Position numbers and translations under genes: made by a program
Shown here: positions 25,594 through 39,386 of the stretch, piece after piece
Layout of the letters: every line of letters begins with the position of its first letter
Numbering within the stretch: position 1 is the first letter of the stretch
Notes under the pieces: model-generated
The model's database searches: none
What the model was told of the DNA's origin: nothing
The model's input: only the letters and a program-made list of their open reading frames with translations
Assembly: GCF_020514235.1 (NCBI RefSeq)
Contig: NZ_VTLB01000002.1
Span: 186,001-250,000, forward strand
Length of the DNA stretch: 64,000 nucleotides
Reading direction: 5' to 3'
From: Synechococcus sp. MU1617
Lineage (GTDB): Bacteria > Cyanobacteriota > Cyanobacteriia > PCC-6307 > Cyanobiaceae

Positions 25594-27303
25594 ATGCCCT
25601 ACCGCATCTCCCGCCAGGCCTACGCCGAGACCTACGGACCCACCACAGGCGACCGGGTTCGTCTGGCCGACACCGATCTGATCCTGGAAGTCGAGAAGGA
25701 CTACACCGTCTACGGCGATGAGGTGAAGTTCGGCGGTGGCAAGGTGATCCGCGACGGCATGGGCCAATCCCAGACCCCTCGAGCCGAGGGCGCCGTCGAC
25801 ACGGTGATCACCAATGCCCTGATCCTCGACTGGTGGGGCATCGTCAAAGCCGATGTCGGCCTCAAGGACGGCCGGATCGTCGGCATCGGCAAAGCCGGTA
25901 ACCCCGACACCCAAGAAGGGGTGACAATCGTGGTGGGTCCAGGCACCGAAGCCATCGCCGGGGAAGGACACATCCTCACGGCCGGTGGCATCGACACGCA
26001 TATCCACTTCATCTGCCCCCAGCAGATCGAAACGGCTCTGGCCAGCGGCGTCACCACGCTGATGGGCGGCGGCACCGGACCAGCCACCGGCACAAATGCC
26101 ACCACCTGCACCCCCGGCGCCTTCCACATCGGGCGGATGCTCCAGGCCGCTGAAGGCCTGCCGGTGAACCTGGGCTTTTTCGGCAAGGGCAATGCCAGCA
26201 CCCCGGAAGCACTGGAAGAACAGGTGCGCGCCGGCGCCTGCGGCCTGAAGCTGCATGAAGACTGGGGCACCACGCCAGCCACGATCGATGCCTGTCTATC
26301 GGTGGCCGATCGGATGGATGTGCAGGTGTGCATCCACACCGACACCCTGAATGAGGCCGGCTTCGTGGAAGACACGATCGCCGCCATCAAGGGACGCACG
26401 ATTCACACCTTCCACACCGAAGGTGCCGGCGGCGGCCATGCCCCGGACATCATCAAGATCTGCGGCGAGGCCAACGTGCTGCCGAGCAGCACCAACCCCA
26501 CCCGGCCTTACACCCGCAACACGCTCGAGGAGCACCTCGACATGCTGATGGTGTGCCACCACCTCGATCCGAAGATCCCCGAGGACGTGGCCTTCGCCGA
26601 ATCTCGGATCCGGCGCGAAACGATCGCCGCCGAAGACATCCTTCACGACCTGGGTGCCTTCTCGATCATCGCCAGCGACTCCCAGGCCATGGGCCGCGTG
26701 GGCGAAGTGATCACCCGCACCTTTCAGACCGCCCACAAGATGAAGGTGCAGCGTGGTGCCCTGCCGGAAGACTCCACTCGCAACGACAACCATCGCCTCA
26801 AGCGCTACATCGCCAAGGTGACGATCAACCCAGCGTTGGCCCACGGCATCAGCACCGAAGTGGGGTCGATCGAAACCGGCAAGCTCGCCGATCTCGTGCT
26901 GTGGAAGCCAGGCTTCTTCGGCATTCGCCCGGAACTGGTGGTGAAGGGCGGTTCCATCATCTGGGCCCAGATGGGCGACGCCAACGCCTCAATTCCCACC
27001 CCTGGCCCCGTGCACGGCCGGCCGATGTTTGGCGCCTTCGGCAAAGCCCTCGCCCCAAGTTGCCTCACCTTCGTGAGCGAAGCAGCGATGGACGCCGACA
27101 TCCAACGCCAGCTAGGGCTGGAGCGCACATGCATGGCGGTGAAGGAGACCCGCAGCGTCGGCAAGAGCGCCCTCAAGCTGAATTCAGCACTGCCCAAGGT
27201 GAGCGTGGACCCGCAGACCTATGAGGTGTTCGCCGACGGTGAACTGCTCACCTGTGAGCCCGCCGAGGTGCTGCCCCTGGCCCAGCGCTATCTGCTGCTT
27301 TGA
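25594..27303 (+). CDS. ureC: Urease alpha (catalytic) subunit
   Basis: A 569-aa metal-dependent amidohydrolase. Nickel ligands are visible: the HxH in GGIDTHIHF, the carbamylated Lys219 in [10 protein letters not shown], His residues in CIHTDTLNE and [15 protein letters not shown], and the Asp in ASDSQAMGR. The flap with catalytic His is in MVCHHLDPK. Length is the family norm. The stop codon TGA is shared with the TTG start of the following amidotransferase gene. Confidence 0.99.
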
Positions 27304-28058
27304 GCCCCACGCTGTTGGTGGTCCAACACGTTGACCACGAAGACGCCGCACTGGTGGGAGAACTGGCGCGGCAACGGGGCCTGACCCTCCAGACCCTGAG
27401 GCCCGACCGGGGCGACCCCCTGCCGGACCCCAGGACGGATGCGAACAGCATTGCGCTGGTGCTGGGGGGACCGATGAGCGTGAACGATCACGACCAACCG
27501 GGCATGGACTGGTTGCGGAAGGAACTGGACTGGTTGACGGCCTGGCACCAGCAGCGCCGGCCGGTGCTGGGCATCTGCCTGGGGGCTCAGCTCCTGGCTG
27601 TTGCTGGAGGGGGCTGCGTGAAACCCCTGCAAGTTGGAGCACCACCACAGCATCTGAAGGAATTGGGCCTCGGCGCGATCCACTGGGTCGCGGATCCGAG
27701 CGATGAGACCCTGTTGCAGGGGCAACAAAGCAGCAGCTTGGTGCTGCATTGGCATGGCGATCGCATCCACCTGCCGGCTGATGCAACGCTGCTGGGTTCC
27801 TCGCTGCACTGTGCGGAACAGGTGTTTCGGATTGGAGCCCACGCCATTGGCCTGCAATGCCACTTCGAGGTCGACGGTGATGCGCTGCAGCACTGGATCG
27901 TCAATGACCACGACTATGTGGTGAGTGCCCTTGGGCCCCAAGGGCCCGATCGCCTGAGCCTGGACTGGCACAGGCTTGGCGCCACGCTCCAGGAACAAGG
28001 CCGACGCTTCTTTAATGCTGCACTTGATCAGCTGATTGACATCAGCCAGGCCCACTAA
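27300..28058 (+). CDS. Class I glutamine amidotransferase-like protein
   Basis: A 252-aa GATase1 domain protein related to the glutaminase half of GMP synthase. The catalytic triad is complete: Cys93 (GICLGAQLL), His188 and Glu190 (QCHFEVD). Stand-alone proteins of this kind release ammonia from glutamine or cleave gamma-glutamyl amides; the substrate is unknown. The start is TTG overlapping the ureC stop by 4 bases, and no nearer ATG exists, so it looks translationally coupled to the urease operon. About 190 bases without another gene follow. Confidence 0.85.
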
Positions 28059-28152: not shown

Positions 28153-28166
28153 GTAGCAACAGCTAC
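28153..28166 (+). promoter_or_regulatory. NtcA consensus site before the DUF4278 gene
   Basis: GTAGCAACAGCTAC is an exact GTA-N8-TAC match, the NtcA consensus, 83 bases before the ATG at 28250. No good TAnnnT box is visible 22 bases downstream, so it may act differently or be a chance match. The rest of the 28059-28249 gap is AT-richer than the surroundings and holds a small stem (CTTCGC with GCGAAG, around 28177-28193). Confidence 0.4.
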
Positions 28167-28730: not shown

Positions 28731-28769
28731 AAAGAAGCCCTGCAACACCGGTGTGTGCGGGGCTTCTTT
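28731..28769. terminator. Bidirectional terminator between convergent genes
   Basis: AAAGAAGCCC (28731-28740) pairs perfectly with GGGCTTCTTT (28760-28769). The A-rich and T-rich ends give a T-run in both directions. The loop contains a second small palindrome (CACCGGTG, 28746-28753). It separates the 74-aa gene on plus from the DUF1028 gene on minus. Confidence 0.85.
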
Positions 28770-28793: not shown

Positions 28794-29468
28794 TCAAGCC
28801 ACCAAGCGGTTGAGCATGGGCAATTCCGACAGTTCATCCCTCCACTCCTGGGCCCAAAGGTCCTGACTGCGCTCGTACACCTCCATCAACTGCTCCACGG
28901 CGCGCTCGTGGAAATCAACGCGCAGATCTAGCAGTGGAAAGGCGGCTTCACCGCTCACCTGCACCGCCGCTGAGGTACAGAGATTGGAACGGTGATCACC
29001 GCCAGCCGCTTCCCCGGCTTGAAGAGCCATCATCAGGCGGCGGCCCAGTTTCAAGCTGGGGTCGCTGGTGAGAAAGGCCTGCTCCATCGCCGCCAACACG
29101 GCCTCATCCACCAAGCAATTGCCAGCAACGGACAGGTCACGCTGATGGCGATGCCCTGCCCAAGGGCCGCAATCCTGCCCCGTCCAACAGGCGGTGCGAC
29201 CGTCCAGGTCAATCAGGTGAAACTGACGCCGGTCACGGTGCTGATCATCGGCAAGCAGGCTGGCCAGAACGCTCTCAGCATCCGAACTCTGCTCTAGGCG
29301 CTCCAAACCACAAATCCCCAGATAGGGATTGGTGTGGGCCTGGGTGGCGACAGCACCAACCCCTGCGCGGATGTGGGGCACGGTGGATCCAACAGCCAGA
29401 TGACAGGTAGCCACAGCCACACCAAAGCGACCGTTGCTGGGGTCCCGGGCCAGGATCGAAAAGGTCAC
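28794..29468 (-). CDS. DUF1028 family protein (Ntn-hydrolase-like)
   Basis: A 224-aa DUF1028 protein. The family has an Ntn-hydrolase-type fold and no settled biochemical role. The start is the GTG at 29468 overlapping the stop of the M20 gene by 4 bases (GTGA). After removal of the first residue the N-terminus would be Thr2 (TFSILARDPSNGRFGVAVAT), which suits an N-terminal nucleophile and supports this start over the longer open frame. HIRAGVGAVATQAHTNP and LSVAGNCLVDEAVLAAM are family blocks. It is last in a minus-strand cluster with amidohydrolase, AsnB-like and carbamoyltransferase genes. Confidence 0.85.
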   Translation of the reverse strand: MTFSILARDPSNGRFGVAVATCHLAVGSTVPHIRAGVGAVATQAHTNPYLGICGLERLEQSSDAESVLASLLADDQHRDRRQFHLIDLDGRTACWTGQDCGPWAGHRHQRDLSVAGNCLVDEAVLAAMEQAFLTSDPSLKLGRRLMMALQAGEAAGGDHRSNLCTSAAVQVSGEAAFPLLDLRVDFHERAVEQLMEVYERSQDLWAQEWRDELSELPMLNRLVA

Positions 29469-30766
29469 GGCAGCTGACGGTCGAGCCGCAGCAACGTTTC
29501 CAGCAGGACCGCAGTGCCCGCCCAGCACTGCTCATCGCTGGTGAACTCTGCAGCGGAATGACTCAAGCCACCCCGGCTGGGCACAAAAATCATGCCCATC
29601 GGCCAGCGACGGCCGACCTCCTGGGCATCGTGGCTGGCTCGGCTGGGGAGATGGCTGTGGGACAGGCCGAGATCGGCTGCGGCCTCAGTGATCGTGGCCA
29701 TCACCAAAGCATCAGCAGGGGTGGGATCAACGCTGAACTGAGGATCCACCGCAATCGGACAGCCCGTTTCAGCACCGATGCGTTCCACCTGCTGCATCAA
29801 CTCCTCCACCAACTGATCAAGAACGGTCGGATCCACATCCCTCAGGTCAACCGTTAGGGCGACAGCGCCAGGAACAACGTTGGCGGCATTGGGCCAAACC
29901 TCCAGTCGACCCACGGTCGCCACCGGATCTCCGGGATGACGGGCGGCCATGGCCTCGACGGCAAGAACAAGACGCGAGGCCGCCACGAGGGCGTCCTGTC
30001 GCAGCCCCATCGGTGTCGTGCCGGCGTGGTTGGCCTGGCCCTGCACCTTGATGCTGAACCGACGCTGACCGACAACACCCTCCACAACACCAATGGCATC
30101 ACCGCGTTGCTCGAGAACACCGCCCTGCTCAACATGCAATTCCAGGAAGGCGGCATAGGCCTCATCTGAGCGTCGGGCCGAAGCCAAAGACGGCCAATGC
30201 CCGCCGATGCGCGCCAGGTTGTCCTGAATCGGCTGGCCATTGCTAGTGGCATAACTCTCCGGGGAATCGGATGCCGTCCCCGTCAAACCCTTGCAACCCA
30301 CCATCGTCGACTCCTCGTCGGCAAAGGCGATCAACTCGATGCCATGCCGCAGGCGGATGCTCTGGTCTTGAAGCGCACGGCAAGCTTCCAGGCCGGCCAA
30401 CACCCCCAGAGCACCGTCAAAGCGTCCACCGGTGGGAACCGTGTCGAGGTGCGACCCGGTCACCAAGGCAGGACGGTGGGGATCGAGGCCTTCCAGGCGT
30501 CCGATCAAGTTGCCAGCGGCATCAACACGCACCTGCATGCCGAGCTGCTTCATCCAGTGGGCCAGCAACTCACGACCCTGCACATCCTCAGGCGAAAACC
30601 CACGTCGACAGACGCTGCCATCGGGCTTGGCGCCAATGCTGGCCAACTGTTCAATCGTTCCGATCAGCCGGTCACGGTTCGGACGTGCGACAACTTTGCT
30701 TGGCTCGATCCCGGTAGGGGTGGTCGGAGAAGCCGAGATGAGCGTGGGCAATGCCGTGACCTTCAT
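29465..30766 (-). CDS. M20-family amidohydrolase of the hydantoinase/carbamoylase type
   Basis: A 433-aa zinc amidohydrolase of the family holding N-carbamoyl-amino acid hydrolases, beta-ureidopropionase and allantoate amidohydrolase. The binuclear metal ligands are all present with the right spacing: His106 (GSHLDTV), Asp117 (GRFDGALGVL), Glu152 (ADEE), His211 (LELHVEQG) and His379 (SRASHDAQ). PNAANVVPG and DLRD line the substrate pocket and dimer interface. The substrate is an N-carbamoyl or ureido compound, not further resolved. It overlaps DUF1028 by 4 bases and follows the AsnB-like gene by 79. Confidence 0.88.
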   Translation of the reverse strand: MKVTALPTLISASPTTPTGIEPSKVVARPNRDRLIGTIEQLASIGAKPDGSVCRRGFSPEDVQGRELLAHWMKQLGMQVRVDAAGNLIGRLEGLDPHRPALVTGSHLDTVPTGGRFDGALGVLAGLEACRALQDQSIRLRHGIELIAFADEESTMVGCKGLTGTASDSPESYATSNGQPIQDNLARIGGHWPSLASARRSDEAYAAFLELHVEQGGVLEQRGDAIGVVEGVVGQRRFSIKVQGQANHAGTTPMGLRQDALVAASRLVLAVEAMAARHPGDPVATVGRLEVWPNAANVVPGAVALTVDLRDVDPTVLDQLVEELMQQVERIGAETGCPIAVDPQFSVDPTPADALVMATITEAAADLGLSHSHLPSRASHDAQEVGRRWPMGMIFVPSRGGLSHSAAEFTSDEQCWAGTAVLLETLLRLDRQLP

Positions 30767-30845
30767 TTCAAACGGAGGTCAATACTCACCCGAAAACCCG
30801 TGGAACCTTGTAGCTAGCGCAACGATTTAATCCTGACCAAAGAAT

Positions 30846-32870
30846 TCAAACGGGCATCAGCACCCGCCAGCCCAGTCGGTCCGCCTCCCGGCGGGCCAAC
30901 GCGGGCACGTCTTCGGCCACAAACATGCGGTGCAGCATCTGCACACCCAGCAGGTGGTTGATCACCGCATCCATCTGCACACGCTCTGCATCGGTGGTGG
31001 CCGGGTCCTCGTGACGCGCAAACAAGGCGCGAACGCCGGCCTTGCTCAACAAACCAGCGGCGTCGATCGCCTCATCACTGAGGTAATCATCGGCGAGCTG
31101 CTTCATCTGCTCCCACTTCTCAGGCTCCGTATGGGCTGGCGGCGCCATGAAGGCGAACTTCTCACGCCGGTACAACACATCCGGCAACAGGCCCGCCATG
31201 GCCTCCCGCAGCACGTATTTCTCGGTTTTTCCCTTGATCCGAAGTTCGGGCGGCACCTGCACCGCAACCGCGGCCAGATGGTGATCCAGGAAGGCCGGTC
31301 GCGCCTCCATGGAATTGGCCATGTCGACCCGGTCGCCACCCCAGGTGAGGATCTGGCCCTCCAGCATGGTCTTGATCCAGACGTACTGGGCCTTGTCCAG
31401 GGCATGGCGCCCGTCCAGTTGATCCGCATCCAGTTGCTCGGCAATCGCCTTGCCCGGGGAGTAACCCTTCAGGGCTGCAGCGTGGGACTCCGACAAAAGC
31501 TCCGGCACCAAGGGCGCGCAGGCCAGCCACGGCTGCAGACAACTGGGGGTGAAGCCGATCACAGCGTCGAGATCGGGGTCATCCACTTGGTTTTCAGCCA
31601 ACATCGCCCCCTTCACCAAGGCATTGGACTGCTGCAGCAAGCTTTCCCAGCTGGCGCGCTCCTGCTGCGGCAGGTCATCAAGACCGTGGAGGAACATGTC
31701 CCGGCGAAAGGCGGGATAGCCGCCGAACAGCTCATCTGAGCCTTCACCGGTCATCACAACTTTGTAGTCCACGTCGTTGACATGGCGGCTCATCAAGAAC
31801 TTCGCGACCGCCAAGGTGTTGTAGATCGTTCTCTCGGCGTGCCAGATGGTGCGCTCCATGTGGCCATAGAGCTCCTGGCCCGAAAGACGCATCAGATCCT
31901 GCTCAGCACCCGTGGCCTCGGCCATCTCCCGGGCGATCGGCGACTCGTCGTAACGGGCGTCATCAAATCCGATCGTGAACGCCTTCACCGGTGCCTGGCT
32001 GACGGCTGACGCCAAGCCGAGGATCGAACAGCTGTCGATGCCGCCGGAGAGGTAACAACCCACGGGCACGTCGGCCACCATGCGCAGCTCAACGGCCTCC
32101 AGCAACGCGGCACGAACGGCAGCGATGTGCTCGGCCTCAGTTCGGTTGGAGTCCCGCTCGTCTTTACGCGGAAAGTCGACATCCCAGTAGGTCGACTCCG
32201 ACACCTCCAGCCGCCCACTCACCCGTTGCACCTTCAGCACATGGCCGGGCTTCACCTGGTGCACCCCAGCAAAAGCCGTGGTGCCGGGAACCATGGTCTG
32301 CATCAACTGGTGAAAGAGGCCCTCCGAGGTAAAGCGTCGCTCCACCGCCGGATGGGCGAAGAGCACCTTCAACTCGGAACCGAACACCAGACCCTCGGGC
32401 GTCATCGCCCAGTACTGCGGTTTGATGCCGAAGCGATCCCGCACCAGGTAAAGGCAGTCTTCGGCTCGATCAAACAAGGCGAAGGCGAACTCACCGCGCA
32501 ACAAGGGCAGAGTCGCCTCCAATCCCTGGCGCTGGTACAGCCGCAGCAGGATCTCGGAATCGCTCTTGCTGCTAAATCGCACCCCTTGGGCGGTGAGGTC
32601 CGCCCTGATGCGCTGAAAGTCGTAGAACTCACCGTTGTGCGCCATCAGCACCTCACCGTCATCGGTGAGGAAGGGCTGCCGGGCCCGTGACTCGTTCAAA
32701 TCAATGATCGAAAGGCGGGCATGGCAGAAGCCGACCCCGGCCTGATCCAGCACCTCGACGCCGAAGCCGTCGGGCCCGCGATGGGCCTGAATCGCCGCCA
32801 TGTTGACCAGCAGCTGGCGGTCCACCGTCTGATGACGGTCTGCGTTGAAAACACCTCCGATTCCACACAT
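30846..32870 (-). CDS. asnB: Asparagine synthase-type glutamine amidotransferase
   Basis: A 674-aa class II amidotransferase. Cys2 is the N-terminal glutaminase nucleophile (MCGIGGVF), with HRGPDGFG and AHNGEFYD in the same domain. The synthetase domain has the PP-loop YLSGGIDS (273-280) and VVMTGEGSDELFGGY. It would normally convert aspartate to asparagine with glutamine and ATP. It is about 50-100 aa longer than E. coli AsnB and sits 9 bases after a carbamoyltransferase paralogue, so a role in amidating another carboxylate cannot be excluded. No frameshift or lost catalytic residue is seen. Confidence 0.88.
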   Translation of the reverse strand: MCGIGGVFNADRHQTVDRQLLVNMAAIQAHRGPDGFGVEVLDQAGVGFCHARLSIIDLNESRARQPFLTDDGEVLMAHNGEFYDFQRIRADLTAQGVRFSSKSDSEILLRLYQRQGLEATLPLLRGEFAFALFDRAEDCLYLVRDRFGIKPQYWAMTPEGLVFGSELKVLFAHPAVERRFTSEGLFHQLMQTMVPGTTAFAGVHQVKPGHVLKVQRVSGRLEVSESTYWDVDFPRKDERDSNRTEAEHIAAVRAALLEAVELRMVADVPVGCYLSGGIDSCSILGLASAVSQAPVKAFTIGFDDARYDESPIAREMAEATGAEQDLMRLSGQELYGHMERTIWHAERTIYNTLAVAKFLMSRHVNDVDYKVVMTGEGSDELFGGYPAFRRDMFLHGLDDLPQQERASWESLLQQSNALVKGAMLAENQVDDPDLDAVIGFTPSCLQPWLACAPLVPELLSESHAAALKGYSPGKAIAEQLDADQLDGRHALDKAQYVWIKTMLEGQILTWGGDRVDMANSMEARPAFLDHHLAAVAVQVPPELRIKGKTEKYVLREAMAGLLPDVLYRREKFAFMAPPAHTEPEKWEQMKQLADDYLSDEAIDAAGLLSKAGVRALFARHEDPATTDAERVQMDAVINHLLGVQMLHRMFVAEDVPALARREADRLGWRVLMPV

Positions 32871-32879
32871 CAGCCCGCC

Positions 32880-33995
32880 TCAGATCACATCCATCACGCG
32901 TTCGGCCCGGTTCACCATGCAGGTGAGCAGCGCCATCCGCAGGAACACGGCACCCCTGGCCTGGCTGAAGTACCAGTTGTGGGGCGTGTCATCCAAGCAG
33001 GTGCTCAGTTCCGCTCCCCGCGCCAAGGGGTGAAGCACGATCGCTTCCGGCTTGAACGGCATGTCGCGGGTGAGGCGAAATCCGCCGCCATGCACTTCAT
33101 AAGAGTCGCCCACCCAGGCGATGGCATTGATGTAAACGACATCGAGATCGGGCACTTCAGCCTGCAGATCGGTGCTGCAGCGCACCTTCATTCCACAAGC
33201 TTCGAGCTCCTCCAACTGCCCTGGGTCGAATAGCGGCTGATCCGGCTCCAGTCCGGGGGCGTGAATCACCACCACCTCATCCACGGTCTGGGGGAATTTG
33301 GCCAGGATCCTCAGCAGTGAGCGTACCGTTCGCATCCGCGACGGAATTCCGACGATTCCAATGCGGATGCGATCAGCCGGAGCCACCTCAACTTCAGTGA
33401 GCTTGGGCCGCCACTTGAAGATCGTGTACAGATCCGCCATCGCCTGCGTCGGATGTTCATCAATGCCGTTGCCCGCATTGATGATGGGAATCCGCAGGGT
33501 TGACGTCATCGCATAAACAGCACCGGGATCGCTGTCCCGTAGCACCACGCAATCGCCGTAGTTGTTGAACATGTGGGCGACATCTTCAAGGGACTCGCCC
33601 TTGGCAATCCCCGTGGTAGCCCTGTCGGTGATGTTGATCGAACTGCCGCCAAGACGATGCCAAGCACTGTCAAATGACAGGCGGGTGCGGGTGCTCGGCT
33701 CGTAGAACGCGTTGATCAGAATCTTTCCCGTCAGCGGCGTGTTGTGGCGGCAATACCGATCTGGATTGCTCTCGAACTTCGCCGCCAAGCGGAACACCTG
33801 CAACAAGGCCTCAGGTCGAAACGGTTGGATCGACACCACATGCTGATTCACCAGATCCAGCAACGGCTCTCCGTCCTCGACAATCGCGGCCAGCAGCTCC
33901 TGGGGTTGGTTCTGCCCGTAGACATCGGGACCCATCGGCTGAAACCGAATCTGTACCGACGTCGCGTCCACGACTGCTGAATTGGCCTGTGCCAT
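32880..33995 (-). CDS. Aspartate/ornithine carbamoyltransferase paralogue with altered substrate loop
   Basis: A 371-aa protein of the transcarbamylase family with a 50-residue N-terminal extension. The carbamoyl-phosphate site is intact: STRTR (101-105), Lys132 in the 80s-type loop (AKGESL) and HPTQ (181-184). The nearest relatives are ATCases (NAGNGIDEHPTQ, TPHNWYFSQARG). The loop that binds aspartate in PyrB (TRVQKER) is replaced by NAIAWVGDSYE (290-300), and HPLPR by HPLAR (322-326). The substrate is therefore probably not aspartate. It heads a tight pair with the AsnB-like gene. A 161-base gap with no gene lies upstream; it holds a weak GTG-N8-TAC but no convincing promoter. Confidence 0.85.
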   Translation of the reverse strand: MAQANSAVVDATSVQIRFQPMGPDVYGQNQPQELLAAIVEDGEPLLDLVNQHVVSIQPFRPEALLQVFRLAAKFESNPDRYCRHNTPLTGKILINAFYEPSTRTRLSFDSAWHRLGGSSINITDRATTGIAKGESLEDVAHMFNNYGDCVVLRDSDPGAVYAMTSTLRIPIINAGNGIDEHPTQAMADLYTIFKWRPKLTEVEVAPADRIRIGIVGIPSRMRTVRSLLRILAKFPQTVDEVVVIHAPGLEPDQPLFDPGQLEELEACGMKVRCSTDLQAEVPDLDVVYINAIAWVGDSYEVHGGGFRLTRDMPFKPEAIVLHPLARGAELSTCLDDTPHNWYFSQARGAVFLRMALLTCMVNRAERVMDVI

Positions 33996-34156
33996 AGCGG
34001 GATCGGATCAACACTCTGTTTGCCAAACCGAGTGCTAAAGCCAGGAACTACATCTTTTACCGGTAACAACAACCACACTCCTGCGTCCACGAAGAAACAG
34101 CTTCTTAAGCAAAGATCCGGAAAAAATGTTCAGACCGTTACTAACAACTGCAGCCG

Positions 34157-34306
34157 TCACCACACTCGACCATTCCTCCACTCAACCCACCAAATCAGCA
34201 GCAACACGAGCACAGACAGCACCAAAGCGAGCTGACTGACCACCAGAAGAAACTGAAAGCCAGACAGGCCAACAACGCTGGCCGTCAAAGGAAGACTTTG
34301 AATCAT
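34157..34306 (-). CDS. Micro-protein with one membrane helix, coupled to the symporter
   Basis: A 49-aa ORF whose ATG overlaps the symporter stop (ATGA at 34306-34303) behind the very strong ribosome site GGAGGAGGG, although that site is also coding sequence of the symporter. Residues 17-42 are almost wholly hydrophobic (FQFLLVVSQLALVLSVLVLL, then IWW), followed by a basic/aromatic tail VEWRNGRVW. This topology is that of small accessory subunits of membrane transporters. No homologue is known to me; reality rests on coupling, ribosome site and composition. Confidence 0.6.
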   Translation of the reverse strand: MIQSLPLTASVVGLSGFQFLLVVSQLALVLSVLVLLLIWWVEWRNGRVW

Positions 34307-35733
34307 CCCTCCTCCTGCAACAAAGTGAAGTCAAACCGTTCCGGCCAAGTGCGACTGCCGATCAGCATCACGACTGCTGACACGGCCGCCGAAAACACAG
34401 CGGCGCAGTAGGGCGCGATCAGCACATAAGCGAGCAGGCCAACAACGCTGCCGGCGAGCATGGCCGCAATGGCAGCCCTGCGATTGGCCGTGCGCCAGTA
34501 CAGGCCGCAGGCCACAGGCCAGACCGTGGAGGCCACCAGTGCACCGGTGAAGAACAGCACCGACGCCAGCGAATCCAGCCGCGGCCAGGACAGCGCCAGG
34601 GTGACAACCGCCAAGCCCACCACCATCAGCCGCGCCGCCTGCTTGAGCTGCAAGTCACTGGCCTGGGGCCGCAACAGGCGGAAGTACACATCCTCCGCCA
34701 ACAGATCGGCGGTGGACGCCAGCAGCGAGTCCAGGGTGGAGGTGAGCGAAGCAAACACCACCACAAACACGAGAGCCGCGCCGCCGGCCCCGAGCAGATC
34801 GGCTGCCATCACGGGGAACACCATGTTCACCTGCTCGAGAGGCAACTCACGTGCCAGGGCCACCAGGCCAATGGAGCCCGTCACCATCGGCACACTCATC
34901 CAGGCGACCCCCCCCAACACAAAGGAGGTCATCACCACCGAGCGCCGGCTGGCGAAGACCCTTGACCACCAGATGTTGTTGTGAAACACCTCGCCCATTG
35001 AAAAGAGGGCGGAATTCCAGGCGATCAACAAGCCCGCCGGCAGCAGCAGATCAAGCCGATCGGGATGCCGGGCCAGCAAGGAGGCATGCACCTCAGGCAT
35101 CGGGAATTGTCGGAAGGCGAGCACCGCCACCACCGCCAGCAACACCATGATCAACAGCGACTGAATGAAATCGGTGCCGATCACGGCCCGCATTCCGCCG
35201 AACAGGGTGTAGACGGTGGCGACACCAATCACCACCACCATCCCCACGTGGTAATCGAAACCTGAAAGGGCCTGCAGCAGCAGGCCAGCACCCATCGCCT
35301 GGGTCATCAGAAAGCCCAGGGTGTAGATCGCGGTGATCACCATGAACACCCACCAAGCCAGACGCCCGTAGCGCAGGCGAATGAAGTCGCCGCTGGTGCG
35401 CCCGTTGGGCATCAGCTGCTTGATCCGCGAGGCCAGGGGGGCGAACAGGATCAGGCCAAGCCCGGCCAGGGCATAGCTGAACATGCCCCAAAGCCCGGTT
35501 TTGTAGCCGAATTCAGGGGCGAGCAGGGTGGTGTTGCCGGTGACCCATGAGGCCATCAACGTGGCCGTGCTCAGGGCCAGCCCGATGTTGCGCCCCGCCA
35601 GCATGTAGTCGTCGGCATTGCCTTGACCGCGCCGGCCCCAGGCAATCCCGAGCGCCACCCAGAAAACAGAGAACAGCACCACCAGCGCCCAGGCGATTCC
35701 GGGCTGGAGGAAGGGAACCGAGTCAGCGGACAT
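34303..35733 (-). CDS. Sodium:solute symporter family transporter
   Basis: A 476-aa inner-membrane transporter of the SSS family with about 12-13 hydrophobic segments. DDYMLAGRNIG is the family N-terminal signature, GFLMTQAMGAGLLLQALSGF and SLTSTLDSLLASTADLLAED match the sodium-site helices (TM1/TM8 region) of the LeuT-like core. Relatives carry urea, proline, pantothenate or other solutes. MASWVTGNTTLLAPEFGY recalls Dur3-type urea carriers, but the substrate is not determined. It is flanked on both sides by tiny membrane ORFs that overlap it, and is first in the minus-strand cluster. Confidence 0.85.
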   Translation of the reverse strand: MSADSVPFLQPGIAWALVVLFSVFWVALGIAWGRRGQGNADDYMLAGRNIGLALSTATLMASWVTGNTTLLAPEFGYKTGLWGMFSYALAGLGLILFAPLASRIKQLMPNGRTSGDFIRLRYGRLAWWVFMVITAIYTLGFLMTQAMGAGLLLQALSGFDYHVGMVVVIGVATVYTLFGGMRAVIGTDFIQSLLIMVLLAVVAVLAFRQFPMPEVHASLLARHPDRLDLLLPAGLLIAWNSALFSMGEVFHNNIWWSRVFASRRSVVMTSFVLGGVAWMSVPMVTGSIGLVALARELPLEQVNMVFPVMAADLLGAGGAALVFVVVFASLTSTLDSLLASTADLLAEDVYFRLLRPQASDLQLKQAARLMVVGLAVVTLALSWPRLDSLASVLFFTGALVASTVWPVACGLYWRTANRRAAIAAMLAGSVVGLLAYVLIAPYCAAVFSAAVSAVVMLIGSRTWPERFDFTLLQEEG

Positions 35734-35848
35734 CCGTCGATCCCCTGCGGTTCCAATAGAGATGTCCGCGCAGAATCATCACCACCGTCGCCGCAGTCAC
35801 AACGGCTCCAAGGGCAAAGATCAGTCGGGCCCAGAGCAGTTCATCCAA
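35723..35848 (-). CDS. Possible micro-membrane protein upstream of the symporter
   Basis: A 41-aa frame from a TTG at 35848, whose stop overlaps the symporter start by 11 bases. Residues 8-28 (ARLIFALGAVVTAATVVMIL) form one membrane helix and the tail is basic (RGHLYWNRRGSTDVR). The frame stays open to 35941, where another TTG would give 72 aa. No ribosome site is convincing. It is kept because coupling and composition mirror the 49-aa ORF on the other side of the symporter. Confidence 0.35.
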   Translation of the reverse strand: MDELLWARLIFALGAVVTAATVVMILRGHLYWNRRGSTDVR

Positions 35849-36049
35849 GACGAAGACCGTTTGAACTCCAGAAACAGATAAGCAAAAGAGGTTCTCAGGC
35901 CTAACCCTGTGCCCTCCATACAGGTGCCTACGGATACCCAAACATCAAGCGATCAGCGCCCTGTCGCCAGAAATTGCGGAATGTGTAGCAACTACAACCC
36001 GAAGGGGGTTGGGGCGACGCCTTGGATGACTTGCGTCCAGACCATCGGA

Positions 36050-37525
36050 ATGTTCACCGACTACAAGCCCACGGTCGGCTTCGACGAATATTTCTGCAGT
36101 GAAACGGCGAGGCCTCGCGAAGATCTGGCCACGCTGCTTGCATCGCTGGGGCAGATGGGGTTGCCCGAACTGAACCGAAGCCATGCCTCCGCCAGCCAGC
36201 TGCTGCGTCGCCTCGGTGCCACCTTCCGCCTGAACGATTCTGGCCTCAAGGGCAGTGAACGGATTCTTCCTTTCGATCCTTTGCCCCGACTGATCGGCCG
36301 CAGCGACTGGATCAACCTGGAGCGGGGACTGCTGCAACGCCTGGAAGCCATCGACTGCTTCCTCGCCGACATCTACGGCCCCCAGCAGATCCTCAACGAC
36401 GGTGTGATCCCGCGGGAAGACGTGGAAAGTTCCTCCGGCTGGCGACCTCAGATGCAGGGCATCAGCCTGCCCCTCAACCGCTGGTGCCACATCTCCGGAC
36501 TCGACCTGATCCGCGACGGCAATGGCACCTGGCGTGTCCTGGAAGACAACCTGCGCTGTCCATCGGGGGTGGCCTATTTCCTCGAGAATCGTCGGGTGAT
36601 GAAACGGTTGTTCCCTGGCCTGTTCGAGGGCCGTGCCGTTCAACCGATCGACGCCTATCCCTCCCATCTGCTGCGCACCCTTCAGGACCTGGCGCCCTGG
36701 AGTGACAGTCCCCGCGTAGCAATCCTGACGCCCGGGGTATTCAACAGCGCCTATTTCGAGCACAGCTATCTGGCCCAGCAGATGGGCATTGCACTGATTG
36801 AGGGACGCGACCTGGTGTGCGAAGACGGCCGGGTGTGGATGCGCAGCACCAACGGCCTCAAGCCCGTGGATGTGATCTACCGCCGCATCGACGACGATTT
36901 TCTCGATCCCACCGTGTTCCGCCAGGACTCAATGCTGGGGGTTCCGGGCCTAATCGACGTGCTGCGGCAAGGACGGGTCGCCATCGCCAATGCCCCTGGC
37001 ACCGGCGTCGCCGACGACAAGCTGATCTACGCCCACGTGCCGGCGATGATCCGCTACTACCTCGATGAGGATCCGATCATCGAGAACGTTCCCACCTATC
37101 TCTGTGCCCGGCCGGACGACCAGCGCTATGTGCTTGAACACCTCGAGCAGCTGGTGGTGAAATCGGTGGCGGAAGCCGGAGGTTACGGAATGCTGATCGG
37201 CCCCCAGGCCAGCCGATCGGAGCTGGCGGACTTCGACACGAAGATCCGTGCGAATCCCCGCAACTTCATCGCGCAGCCCACACTGCAGCTCTCCACCGTG
37301 CCATCCCTCAGTGACGGTGAGCTCTACCCCTGCCACGTGGATCTGCGCCCCTATGTGCTGCGCGGCGCAAGCACCTGGGTGAGCCCAGGGGGGCTGACGC
37401 GGGTGGCCCTGAAGCGCGGCTCGCTGGTGGTGAATTCGTCCCAGGGGGGCGGCTGCAAGGACACCTGGATCGTCGACGACCAACGAATAGCAGCACCGCA
37501 GCCCCAGGAGGCTGTGCCGTGTTGA
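36050..37525 (+). CDS. Circularly permuted ATP-grasp protein
   Basis: A 491-aa member of the circularly permuted ATP-grasp type 2 family (former DUF404/407), thought to form amide bonds between amino acids or peptides with ATP. ERILPFDPLPRLIG and AIDCFLADIYGPQQILNDGV open the fold. WRVLEDNLRCPSGVAYFLEN and EAGGYGMLIGP, then VSPGGLTRVALKRGSLVVN, are the nucleotide- and metal-binding blocks. The start at 36050 (MFTDYKPTVGFDEYF) matches where homologues begin; a GTG at 35909 would add 47 residues including three cysteines. It is first of a three-gene operon with alpha-E and transglutaminase genes. Confidence 0.85.
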   Translation: MFTDYKPTVGFDEYFCSETARPREDLATLLASLGQMGLPELNRSHASASQLLRRLGATFRLNDSGLKGSERILPFDPLPRLIGRSDWINLERGLLQRLEAIDCFLADIYGPQQILNDGVIPREDVESSSGWRPQMQGISLPLNRWCHISGLDLIRDGNGTWRVLEDNLRCPSGVAYFLENRRVMKRLFPGLFEGRAVQPIDAYPSHLLRTLQDLAPWSDSPRVAILTPGVFNSAYFEHSYLAQQMGIALIEGRDLVCEDGRVWMRSTNGLKPVDVIYRRIDDDFLDPTVFRQDSMLGVPGLIDVLRQGRVAIANAPGTGVADDKLIYAHVPAMIRYYLDEDPIIENVPTYLCARPDDQRYVLEHLEQLVVKSVAEAGGYGMLIGPQASRSELADFDTKIRANPRNFIAQPTLQLSTVPSLSDGELYPCHVDLRPYVLRGASTWVSPGGLTRVALKRGSLVVNSSQGGGCKDTWIVDDQRIAAPQPQEAVPC

Positions 37526-38514
37526 GCCGTGTTGCTGATTCGCTGTATTGGATCAACCGCTATCTGGAACGCGCCGAAAACATCTCGCGCTTTCTGGAAG
37601 TCAGTGAAGCGATGGCGCTGGACTGTCCTCCGGGCAGCGCCGAACCGTGGCTGCCGCTGGTGGAGGTAACGGGGGATCGCCACCGCTTCGATACGACCTA
37701 TCCCGATGCGACGCCCAAACAGGTGGTGCGCTTCCTGCTGCTGGACCGCAGCAATCCCAACAGCATCGTGAGTTGCATTGCGATGGCCCGGGAAAACGCG
37801 CGGCAGATCAGGGATGTGATCACCACGGAGATGTGGGAGCAGATCAATGATCTGCACTGGAGCCTGCAGGACGACGAAGACATCTGGCGGGAACAGGTGC
37901 AGGAGCAACTGCGGATCATTCGGCGTGGCTGCCAGCTCGTTTACGGGATCACCGACACCACCCTGAGCCGTGATCTGAGCTGGCTGTTCAGTCAGCTGGG
38001 ACGTTTGATCGAACGCGCCGACAAAACGTCGCGCATCCTCGACGTCAAATATTTCCTACTGCTGCCCTCCCCCGAGGAGGTGGGCGGCGTGCTGGATGAA
38101 CTGCAGTGGATCACCCTGCTGCGCACAGCAGGCGCCTATCAGATGTACCGCCAGAGCGTGCAGCAAGCCATCAGCCCGGCGTCCGTGGCCCGCTTTTTGC
38201 TGCTGGATCCGAGCTTTCCTCGTTCGGTTCGGTATTGCCTCCAGGGCATCAGCAACACCTTGCAACAGATCCAGCAGCACCCGAGCCAAGACACGCCGGA
38301 TGACCTCGACTGCTTGCGCGGACAGCTCCTGGCCCGCTGGAGCTACGTGCGGATCGACAACCTGATCGAAGCCGGTCTGCATGAAGCCATTGACCAACTT
38401 CAGCAGGACCTCAACCAACTCCACAGCCTGATCCAGACCCGCTACTTCACCAGCGCCGACCTCCGTTCCATCCCCACCGATCCCGCATGCGCGCTCTCAT
38501 CGTTCACCGCCTGA
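37519..38514 (+). CDS. Alpha-E domain protein
   Basis: A 331-aa all-helical alpha-E protein (former DUF403). LSRVADSLYWINRYLERAEN at the N-terminus is the family signature, and LGRLIERADKTSRILDVKYF repeats the same ERA..R pattern halfway, showing the duplicated helical unit. The function is unknown, but the gene nearly always goes with ATP-grasp and transglutaminase genes. It begins with GTG at 37519, overlapping the ATP-grasp stop by 7 bases, and overlaps the next gene by 28 bases. Confidence 0.88.
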   Translation: MLSRVADSLYWINRYLERAENISRFLEVSEAMALDCPPGSAEPWLPLVEVTGDRHRFDTTYPDATPKQVVRFLLLDRSNPNSIVSCIAMARENARQIRDVITTEMWEQINDLHWSLQDDEDIWREQVQEQLRIIRRGCQLVYGITDTTLSRDLSWLFSQLGRLIERADKTSRILDVKYFLLLPSPEEVGGVLDELQWITLLRTAGAYQMYRQSVQQAISPASVARFLLLDPSFPRSVRYCLQGISNTLQQIQQHPSQDTPDDLDCLRGQLLARWSYVRIDNLIEAGLHEAIDQLQQDLNQLHSLIQTRYFTSADLRSIPTDPACALSSFTA

Positions 38515-39386
38515 CGTATCGGTATGACGCCGCGGTTGTCCTGGGGGAGCACCGCCTCTGCCTGAGGCCTCGCGGGCAGGGGTTCCAGACCCTGCTGGAG
38601 CATCAACTCAGCGTGCTGCCTGAACCGGAACAACGTCGGGAACTAGTGGCCGCCAGCGGCGACGAAATCCAACGGCTCCGTTTTCTCGGCAGTACCGATG
38701 AACTCGTCTTTGAGGCTCGCAGCTTGGTGGAGACCCGACCGGCACCTCCGCTAGAGAGCTGCTTCAACGGACTCGAACCACCCTTGCCATACCCGCAAGG
38801 CCAGCTCAACAGCGATCTGCAGGGGGCCTTGGAAGGCTGGTTGCCCAATGGCCAGCACGAACCTGCGGCCATCGATCTAACTCAAGAAGCCCTGATGGGC
38901 AGCAACCAGCAGACCCTGGCCTTTCTGAAGCAACTCATTGAACTGATTCAAGAGCGGGTGAAATACACCCAACGCCATGTGGGGCCGGCCTGGCCCGCGG
39001 GCCGAACCCTGCGCGAGCGGATCGGCTCCTGCCGTGATCTGGCGATGCTGATGGTGGCCTGCTGCCGCGTGGTGGGTCTTCCCGCCCGCTTCGTGAGCGG
39101 CTATCAACTGCAGCAACCTCCACCGAAGGACTACGACCTGCATGCCTGGGCGGAGGTCTACCTGCCCGGAGCGGGATGGCGCGGCTTTGACCCCAGTGCC
39201 GGGATGGAAGTCAACGATCGCTATGTGGTGCTGGCCACCTCATCCAAGCCGGAACTCACCGCAGCCGTGAGCGGCAGCTTCAGTGGTCCCCTCGGAACAA
39301 GCAGTGAACTGAATTGGCAAATTCAGATCAATGAAGAAAAATCCGGAACGAAACCCCCCTCACGCAACCTGGTTCAGGCCGCCTGA
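38487..39386 (+). CDS. Transglutaminase-like cysteine protease / amidase
   Basis: A 299-aa protein with an N-terminal beta domain (residues about 1-110, bacterial transglutaminase-like N) and a papain-fold transglutaminase core. The triad is Cys182 (GSCRDLAML), His219 (DLHAWAEVYLP) and Asp235 (GFDPSAG). Such proteins cleave or exchange amide bonds. Together with the ATP-grasp and alpha-E genes it forms a predicted system for making and trimming an unknown peptide or amide. Its end overlaps the convergent cupin gene by 13 bases. Confidence 0.9.
   Translation: MRALIVHRLTYRYDAAVVLGEHRLCLRPRGQGFQTLLEHQLSVLPEPEQRRELVAASGDEIQRLRFLGSTDELVFEARSLVETRPAPPLESCFNGLEPPLPYPQGQLNSDLQGALEGWLPNGQHEPAAIDLTQEALMGSNQQTLAFLKQLIELIQERVKYTQRHVGPAWPAGRTLRERIGSCRDLAMLMVACCRVVGLPARFVSGYQLQQPPPKDYDLHAWAEVYLPGAGWRGFDPSAGMEVNDRYVVLATSSKPELTAAVSGSFSGPLGTSSELNWQIQINEEKSGTKPPSRNLVQAA

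Follow-up and report, generated by a model that had tools for sequence, protein, structure and literature searches.

We analysed a window of 64,000 nucleotides from Synechococcus sp. MU1617 (contig NZ_VTLB01000002.1, positions 186,001-250,000; coordinates below are those within the window) and found on its minus strand a cassette whose probable role, judging from its sequences, is to make, import and recycle N-carbamoyl-glutamine amide (CGA) as an osmolyte. CGA has been listed for decades as a salt-protecting osmolyte of bacteria. The two biosynthetic enzymes would be a carbamoyltransferase paralogue (CT) and an AsnB-type glutamine amidotransferase (ASN): CT would move the carbamoyl group from carbamoyl phosphate onto the alpha-amine of L-glutamine, and ASN would activate the free alpha-carboxylate with ATP and amidate it with glutamine nitrogen to give CGA. 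With the amine capped by a transcarbamylase and the carboxylate amidated by an AsnB-type enzyme, both charges would be masked and the product would be a neutral N-carbamoyl amino acid amide. A sodium:solute symporter, which is the probable importer of the solute, would retrieve CGA, perhaps with small membrane partners. An M20-family enzyme (M20) would strip the carbamoyl group, and in cyanobacteria a DUF1028 protein would remove the amide, a task that in purple sulfur bacteria would fall to an isochorismatase-fold hydrolase, so that nitrogen could be recovered once salt drops or nitrogen becomes short. The open reading frames (ORFs) and the closing repeat follow in the order of transcription.

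35723..35848, minus strand: 41-amino-acid micro-ORF with a single transmembrane helix and a TTG start, overlapping the symporter start; position conserved in most relatives
34303..35733, minus strand: SSF-family sodium:solute symporter (PF00474, 4e-31)
34157..34306, minus strand: 49-amino-acid micro-ORF with a single transmembrane helix, overlapping the symporter stop; in-frame conservation in most cyanobacterial loci
32880..33995, minus strand: CT, with the aspartate transcarbamylase (ATCase) fold and the carbamoyl-phosphate residues, RxQxER lost
30846..32870, minus strand: ASN (PF00733, 7e-93), with Cys2 and SGGIDS motifs
29465..30766, minus strand: M20, an enzyme of the N-carbamoyl-amino-acid hydrolase type (TIGR01879, 397 bits)
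28794..29468, minus strand: DUF1028 protein (PF06267, 7e-67), with a GTG start and Thr at position 2
28731..28769, no strand assigned: inverted repeat, a probable operon terminator from its sequence, with a 10-bp perfect stem and A/T-rich ends

The predicted model of CT had an ATCase-like fold (mean pLDDT 83.9) that matched Plasmodium ATCase with a Z score of 35.8 and a root-mean-square deviation of 2.2 over 309 residues, and the E. coli catalytic chain with a Z score of about 33-35. The carbamoyl-phosphate residues (STRT, R153, H181 and Q184) and the HPTQ motif were invariant, as were the alpha-carboxylate residues R222 and K132, which correspond to R167 and K84 of E. coli ATCase. In ATCase, R167 and K84 hold the alpha-carboxyl group of aspartate and R229 and Q231 its beta-carboxyl group, and RxQxER is the aspartate transcarbamylase motif of the 240s loop (PMC4581275). 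The CT of the window has A291-I-A293-W-V-G at the place of this motif, with alanine for both R229 and Q231. Two of the 105 rows of our alignment had R and Q there and match PyrB-like plasmid genes (L040 and L041); among the remaining 103 orthologues, the R229 position was A, S or T and never R (0/103), and the Q231 position was mostly A or S and never Q (0/103). Since the alpha-carboxylate residues are kept and the aspartate anchors are lost, we predict from these structure-based residue roles that the acceptor amino acid has a free alpha-carboxylate and lacks an acidic side chain, so that CT would carbamoylate the alpha-amine of amino acids whose side chain is neutral.

CT carries the superfamily motifs SxRT and HPxQ. 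The third motif, HxLP, of which some variation is known in the family, is replaced by HPLA throughout the clade; the fold and the two remaining motifs keep CT in the transcarbamylase superfamily. Its score against TIGR00670 (196 bits) was below the cut-off of 237. PyrB shares the fold, the carbamoyl-phosphate site and the alpha-carboxylate arginine with CT, but it has RxQxER where CT has AIAWVG and HPLP where CT has HPLA. The possibility that CT is the only PyrB of the cell, raised in a first-pass annotation of this DNA, does not hold, since a separate PyrB, which retains R229 and Q231, is present; complete genomes of the genus carry both PyrB and ArgF besides CT, so we rejected CT as either enzyme. 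The ureidoglycine, ornithine, diaminopropionate and putrescine transcarbamylases likewise carbamoylate amines from carbamoyl phosphate; however, none of their signatures H(T/S)LP, DxxxSMG and HDLP occurs in CT. We thus rejected CT as an ornithine transcarbamylase (no DxxxSMG loop), a ureidoglycine transcarbamylase (HPLA instead of H(T/S)LP) and a diaminopropionate transcarbamylase (signature motif absent).

In ASN, the MCGIGG start with Cys2 and the SGGIDS motif were invariant, and the domains PF13522/PF13537 and PF00733 were found together with a match over cut-off to TIGR01536 (428 bits). ASN therefore has the Cys2, the GATase domain and the SGGxDS motif of an AsnB-type glutamine-dependent amidotransferase. 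It is the only AsnB-type gene of the genome, as the first-pass annotation had allowed for; nevertheless it is dispensable for protein asparagine, because GatB is present, no match to asparaginyl-tRNA synthetase reaches the cut-off, and 133 of 251 Cyanobiaceae genomes have no match to ASN whatsoever. On these grounds we ruled out a role as asparagine synthase for protein. ASN was also rejected as the enzyme of N-acetylglutaminylglutamine amide (NAGGN): it scored 302 bits against the NAGGN amidotransferase model TIGR03104 (cut-off 570), and it occurs in Idiomarina, Kangiella and Nitrosomonas halophila, where nothing exceeds that cut-off. CT is likely to be annotated as an aspartate carbamoyltransferase and ASN as an asparagine synthase; our reading of the cassette would correct both.

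Ectothiorhodospira marismortui is a CGA producer (PMC1224877), and the type strain of E. mobilis/marismortui is DSM 4180T (PMC7824335). We found CT and ASN side by side in E. marismortui DSM 4180 (L117), so the gene set is present in a known producer of the very compound predicted here. This genome holds three transcarbamylases: PyrB with RxQxER, ArgF with DxxxSMG (as DVWASMG), and CT, which also lacks R229 and Q231. With PyrB and ArgF both clear-cut, CT is the only unassigned transcarbamylase in a known CGA producer. The ASN orthologue scored 1026 bits and the next AsnB 276. In the searchable literature we found no CGA biosynthesis gene; subscription journals were outside the search, so prior discovery is possible. 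Thiorhodospira sibirica had no annotated osmotic-stress genes in a genome survey of osmoadaptation, which suggested CGA among other solutes (PMC7824335) and left it as a guess; in this species CT and ASN are both present but unlinked.

A close known parallel in logic is the NAGGN operon (asnO-ngg, or the PA3459-PA3461 'trio'), in which an AsnO-type amidotransferase lies beside an N-capping enzyme and a hydrolase and which is required for growth in high salt (PMC8070244). Like the cassette, it combines AsnB-type amidation of a glutamine-derived alpha-carboxylate with an N-capping enzyme and a hydrolase in the same operon, giving an uncharged osmolyte (PMC8070244). The N-cap differs: in NAGGN it is an acetyl-dipeptide made by Ngg, whereas in the cassette it would be a carbamoyl group added by a transcarbamylase.

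Taking at least 580 bits as a CT orthologue (n=44; next best 84) and at least 480 bits as an ASN orthologue (n=45; next best 223), we found both genes in 44 of the 251 Cyanobiaceae genomes, CT only in none, ASN only in one and neither in 206. All 44 CT genomes thus fall within the 45 ASN genomes, and the single exception (G189) is a 74%-complete draft in which ASN is cut at a contig end. Of 34 genomes of the same genus, 24 carry CT in addition to PyrB- and ArgF-like genes, which makes it their third transcarbamylase; a sample of 25 cyanobacteria from other genera contained no CT. The order symporter, CT, ASN, M20 and DUF1028 was invariant in 14 loci of the genus, including three with different flanking genes, and is therefore conserved far beyond chance. 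Both micro-ORFs lie at the same positions and in frame in most relatives. A check proposed in the first-pass annotation, in which scattered orthologues would have spoken against a functional unit, thus gave essentially perfect co-occurrence of CT and ASN. A diverged CT-ASN pair was seen at a separate site in two picocyanobacterial genomes (G229:C1:1680760-1683884 and G240:C1:1642128-1645253), the first of which also has the standard copy. We also observed CT, ASN, M20 and DUF1028 in a 1.7-Mb Prochlorococcus-sized genome on a long branch (G256, locus L129), with no symporter match in the stretch read.

The distribution of the cassette tracks salt adaptation. The glucosylglycerol-phosphate synthase gene ggpS is nearly absent from freshwater picocyanobacteria (PMC9361551). 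In the 251 genomes, 40 had both CT and ggpS, 4 had CT only, 51 had ggpS only and 156 had neither (odds ratio 31, p 1e-16). In genera where both genes vary, the two occurred together 17 times, against an expectation of 10.0 (P 8e-6), a comparison from which kinship inside genera is not fully removed. The association with saline habitat and salt genes that befits a compatible solute was thus found both in the holders' habitats and in ggpS, also within genera. The main texts of the salinity studies consulted do not name the cassette genes, and the first-pass annotation did not link the CT-ASN pair to a known compatible solute.

Several points weigh against CGA. Of the 44 picocyanobacteria with CT, four have no ggpS; CGA is not among the osmolytes reported for marine Synechococcus, namely glucosylglycerol, glucosylglycerate and glycine betaine (PMC12834511); and a solute that ties up four nitrogens is expensive where the sea is poor in nitrogen. 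For neither DUF1028 nor the isochorismatase-fold enzyme has an amide substrate been demonstrated. E. marismortui additionally encodes a genuine NAGGN amidotransferase and other AsnB genes, and so another AsnB may amidate CGA there. The choice of glutamine over asparagine or another neutral amino acid comes from the E. marismortui link alone, since the active site of CT specifies only a non-acidic side chain and an alpha-carboxylate. The same chemistry on another acceptor, such as asparagine, or a product that serves mainly as a nitrogen store rather than as an osmolyte, is unlikely but is the best of the alternatives. A store would fit the recycling enzymes and the nearby urease, as well as the retention of CT and ASN in G256, which lacks ggpS; however, the distribution follows salinity, and the known CGA producer has CT and no further orphan transcarbamylase.

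To place the cassette outside the cyanobacteria, a CT profile was run against 85,000 species genomes, giving 118 relatives; the best 80 of these served for the locus counts and, outside the cyanobacteria, were 57-65% identical to CT. The holders include Kangiella, Idiomarina, Aliidiomarina, Pseudoalteromonas, Alteromonas (among them Alteromonas halophila), Thalassotalea, Thioalkalivibrio, Ectothiorhodospira, Thiorhodospira, Nitrosomonas halophila, Kordiimonas and similar genera, and those named are almost all marine, soda-lake or halophilic. ASN adjoins CT in 77 of the 80 loci, two of the exceptions being contig ends. A symporter match lies upstream in 72, with none in Ectothiorhodospira; in halophilic gammaproteobacteria the homologues are 39-50% identical and immediately upstream of CT. 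M20 was matched nearby in 53 loci and is missing from many gammaproteobacterial ones, and an isochorismatase-fold hydrolase is found together with M20 in 20 (Ectothiorhodospira, Thioalkalivibrio and a few others); its nearest named families are biuret amidohydrolase and RutB, all below cut-off.

These counts bear on the import and breakdown of an environmental ureido or amide compound, with ammonia passing to nitrogen assimilation and CT run in reverse to carbamoyl phosphate. Such a role would suit an operon that combines an M20 carbamoylase with DUF1028 and a symporter and that adjoins urease in many loci, but we consider the role improbable, more so than a different acceptor or a store: the conserved core contains the ATP-using ASN and M20 is found in only 53 of the 80 loci, family searches recognised no carbamate kinase among the cassette genes, and the promoter has no NtcA box. 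Nor is the linkage to urease conserved. Three loci of the genus (L031, L035 and L036) have the cassette without adjoining urease genes and without the ATP-grasp cluster of the window, and the cassette is thus independent of the urea locus. Together with a distribution that follows salt adaptation, these points leave unsupported the proposal of the first-pass annotation that the genes scavenge nitrogen for urea and nitrate assimilation. Its other suggestion, that the genes build and recycle a ureido or amide compound, fared better: CT and ASN are the conserved core, to which M20, with DUF1028 or the isochorismatase-fold enzyme, is an add-on, and the logic is biosynthetic because the core enzymes consume ATP and carbamoyl phosphate. 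A ureido secondary metabolite or signal unrelated to salt is very improbable, since, although AsnB-like enzymes also tailor peptides and ASN has weak matches to lasso cyclases, the cassette has a dedicated transporter gene and no further biosynthetic genes and is conserved widely over unrelated marine phototrophs, heterotrophs and sulfur oxidisers.

The recycling arm of the proposed CGA cycle is defined at the level of families. M20 scored 397 bits against the hydantoinase/carbamoylase model TIGR01879 (cut-off 204) and belongs to the same M20 subfamily as N-carbamoyl-L-amino-acid hydrolase, ErtE and allantoate amidohydrolase; unlike those enzymes, it is below the cut-offs of the ErtE, AllC and related equivalog models, and its exact substrate was therefore left unassigned. 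Its best NCBIfam match, the N-carbamyl-L-glutamate amidohydrolase ErtE (432 bits, below the cut-off of 520), is in line with the CGA proposal. In L130, L131 and L133 the strand of DUF1028 is reversed, and the gene still adjoins M20. Its true start is the GTG at 29468, which gives a 4-base overlap with the M20 stop (GTGA); a longer ORF to 29528 was rejected as an over-extension. A start codon (ATG, GTG or TTG) lies right before Thr in every checked locus. The Met-Thr start is kept throughout these loci, and a Thr after the start would suit an N-terminal-nucleophile hydrolase. That DUF1028 and the isochorismatase-fold enzyme are amidases is a guess that we draw from their occurrence with M20.

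The tree of CT separates the family from PyrB and groups the cyanobacterial sequences in one clade (support 99) among proteobacterial ones; several inner forks are weakly supported. This single supported clade suggests a single transfer; the GC content of the cassette is the same as that of its surroundings, and composition therefore bears no trace of the transfer. Plasmid searches with CT and ASN returned only PyrB-like and unrelated AsnB genes. In many gammaproteobacteria we observed a small protein with a C-terminal transmembrane helix before the SSF symporter (L086:5974-6399, L058:5889-6425 and others), for which no Pfam family exceeded the cut-off. The 41-amino-acid ORF of Synechococcus is possibly a reduced form of this protein at the same place, and it may be an accessory peptide of the symporter.

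Our proposal offers a specific two-enzyme hypothesis for an osmolyte that has no gene named in the searchable literature. If true, it would predict CGA in organisms not reported as producers, including abundant marine phototrophs, and would extend the transcarbamylase family by a new specificity. We would give about even chances to a broader picture, in which a CGA cassette with new glutamine transcarbamylase and amidotransferase specificities has spread horizontally and is common to marine Synechococcus, a single genome of Prochlorococcus size and many halophilic gammaproteobacteria; because the holders would both make and import CGA, the compound may pass between organisms as a nitrogen-rich currency of the surface ocean and soda lakes.

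ORF and family searches agreed with the first-pass annotation on the five genes and two micro-ORFs, their positions, strand and families, and the coordinates bore out its 9-base spacing of CT and ASN, the DUF1028/M20 overlap and the terminator. The terminator arms are AAAGAAGCCC...GGGCTTCTTT at 28731-28769, and an automatic scan missed them because the loop is long; a promoter scan of the locus gave no match. A palindromic NtcA-like box, GTAGCAACAGCTAC, lies at 28153-28166 between the cassette terminator and a class-I glutamine amidotransferase-like gene (27300-28058, plus strand). Nitrogen control of the cassette by NtcA was rejected, since this sole nearby box is not at the cassette promoter. 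The amidotransferase-like gene directly follows ureC and has no match in the ureC-holding loci L030 and L032. Divergent to the cassette, at 35909-39386 on the plus strand, are genes for circularly permuted ATP-grasp, alpha-E and transglutaminase proteins (PF14403, PF04168 and PF01841), which, apart from L031, L035 and L036, neighbour the cassette in most loci of the genus.

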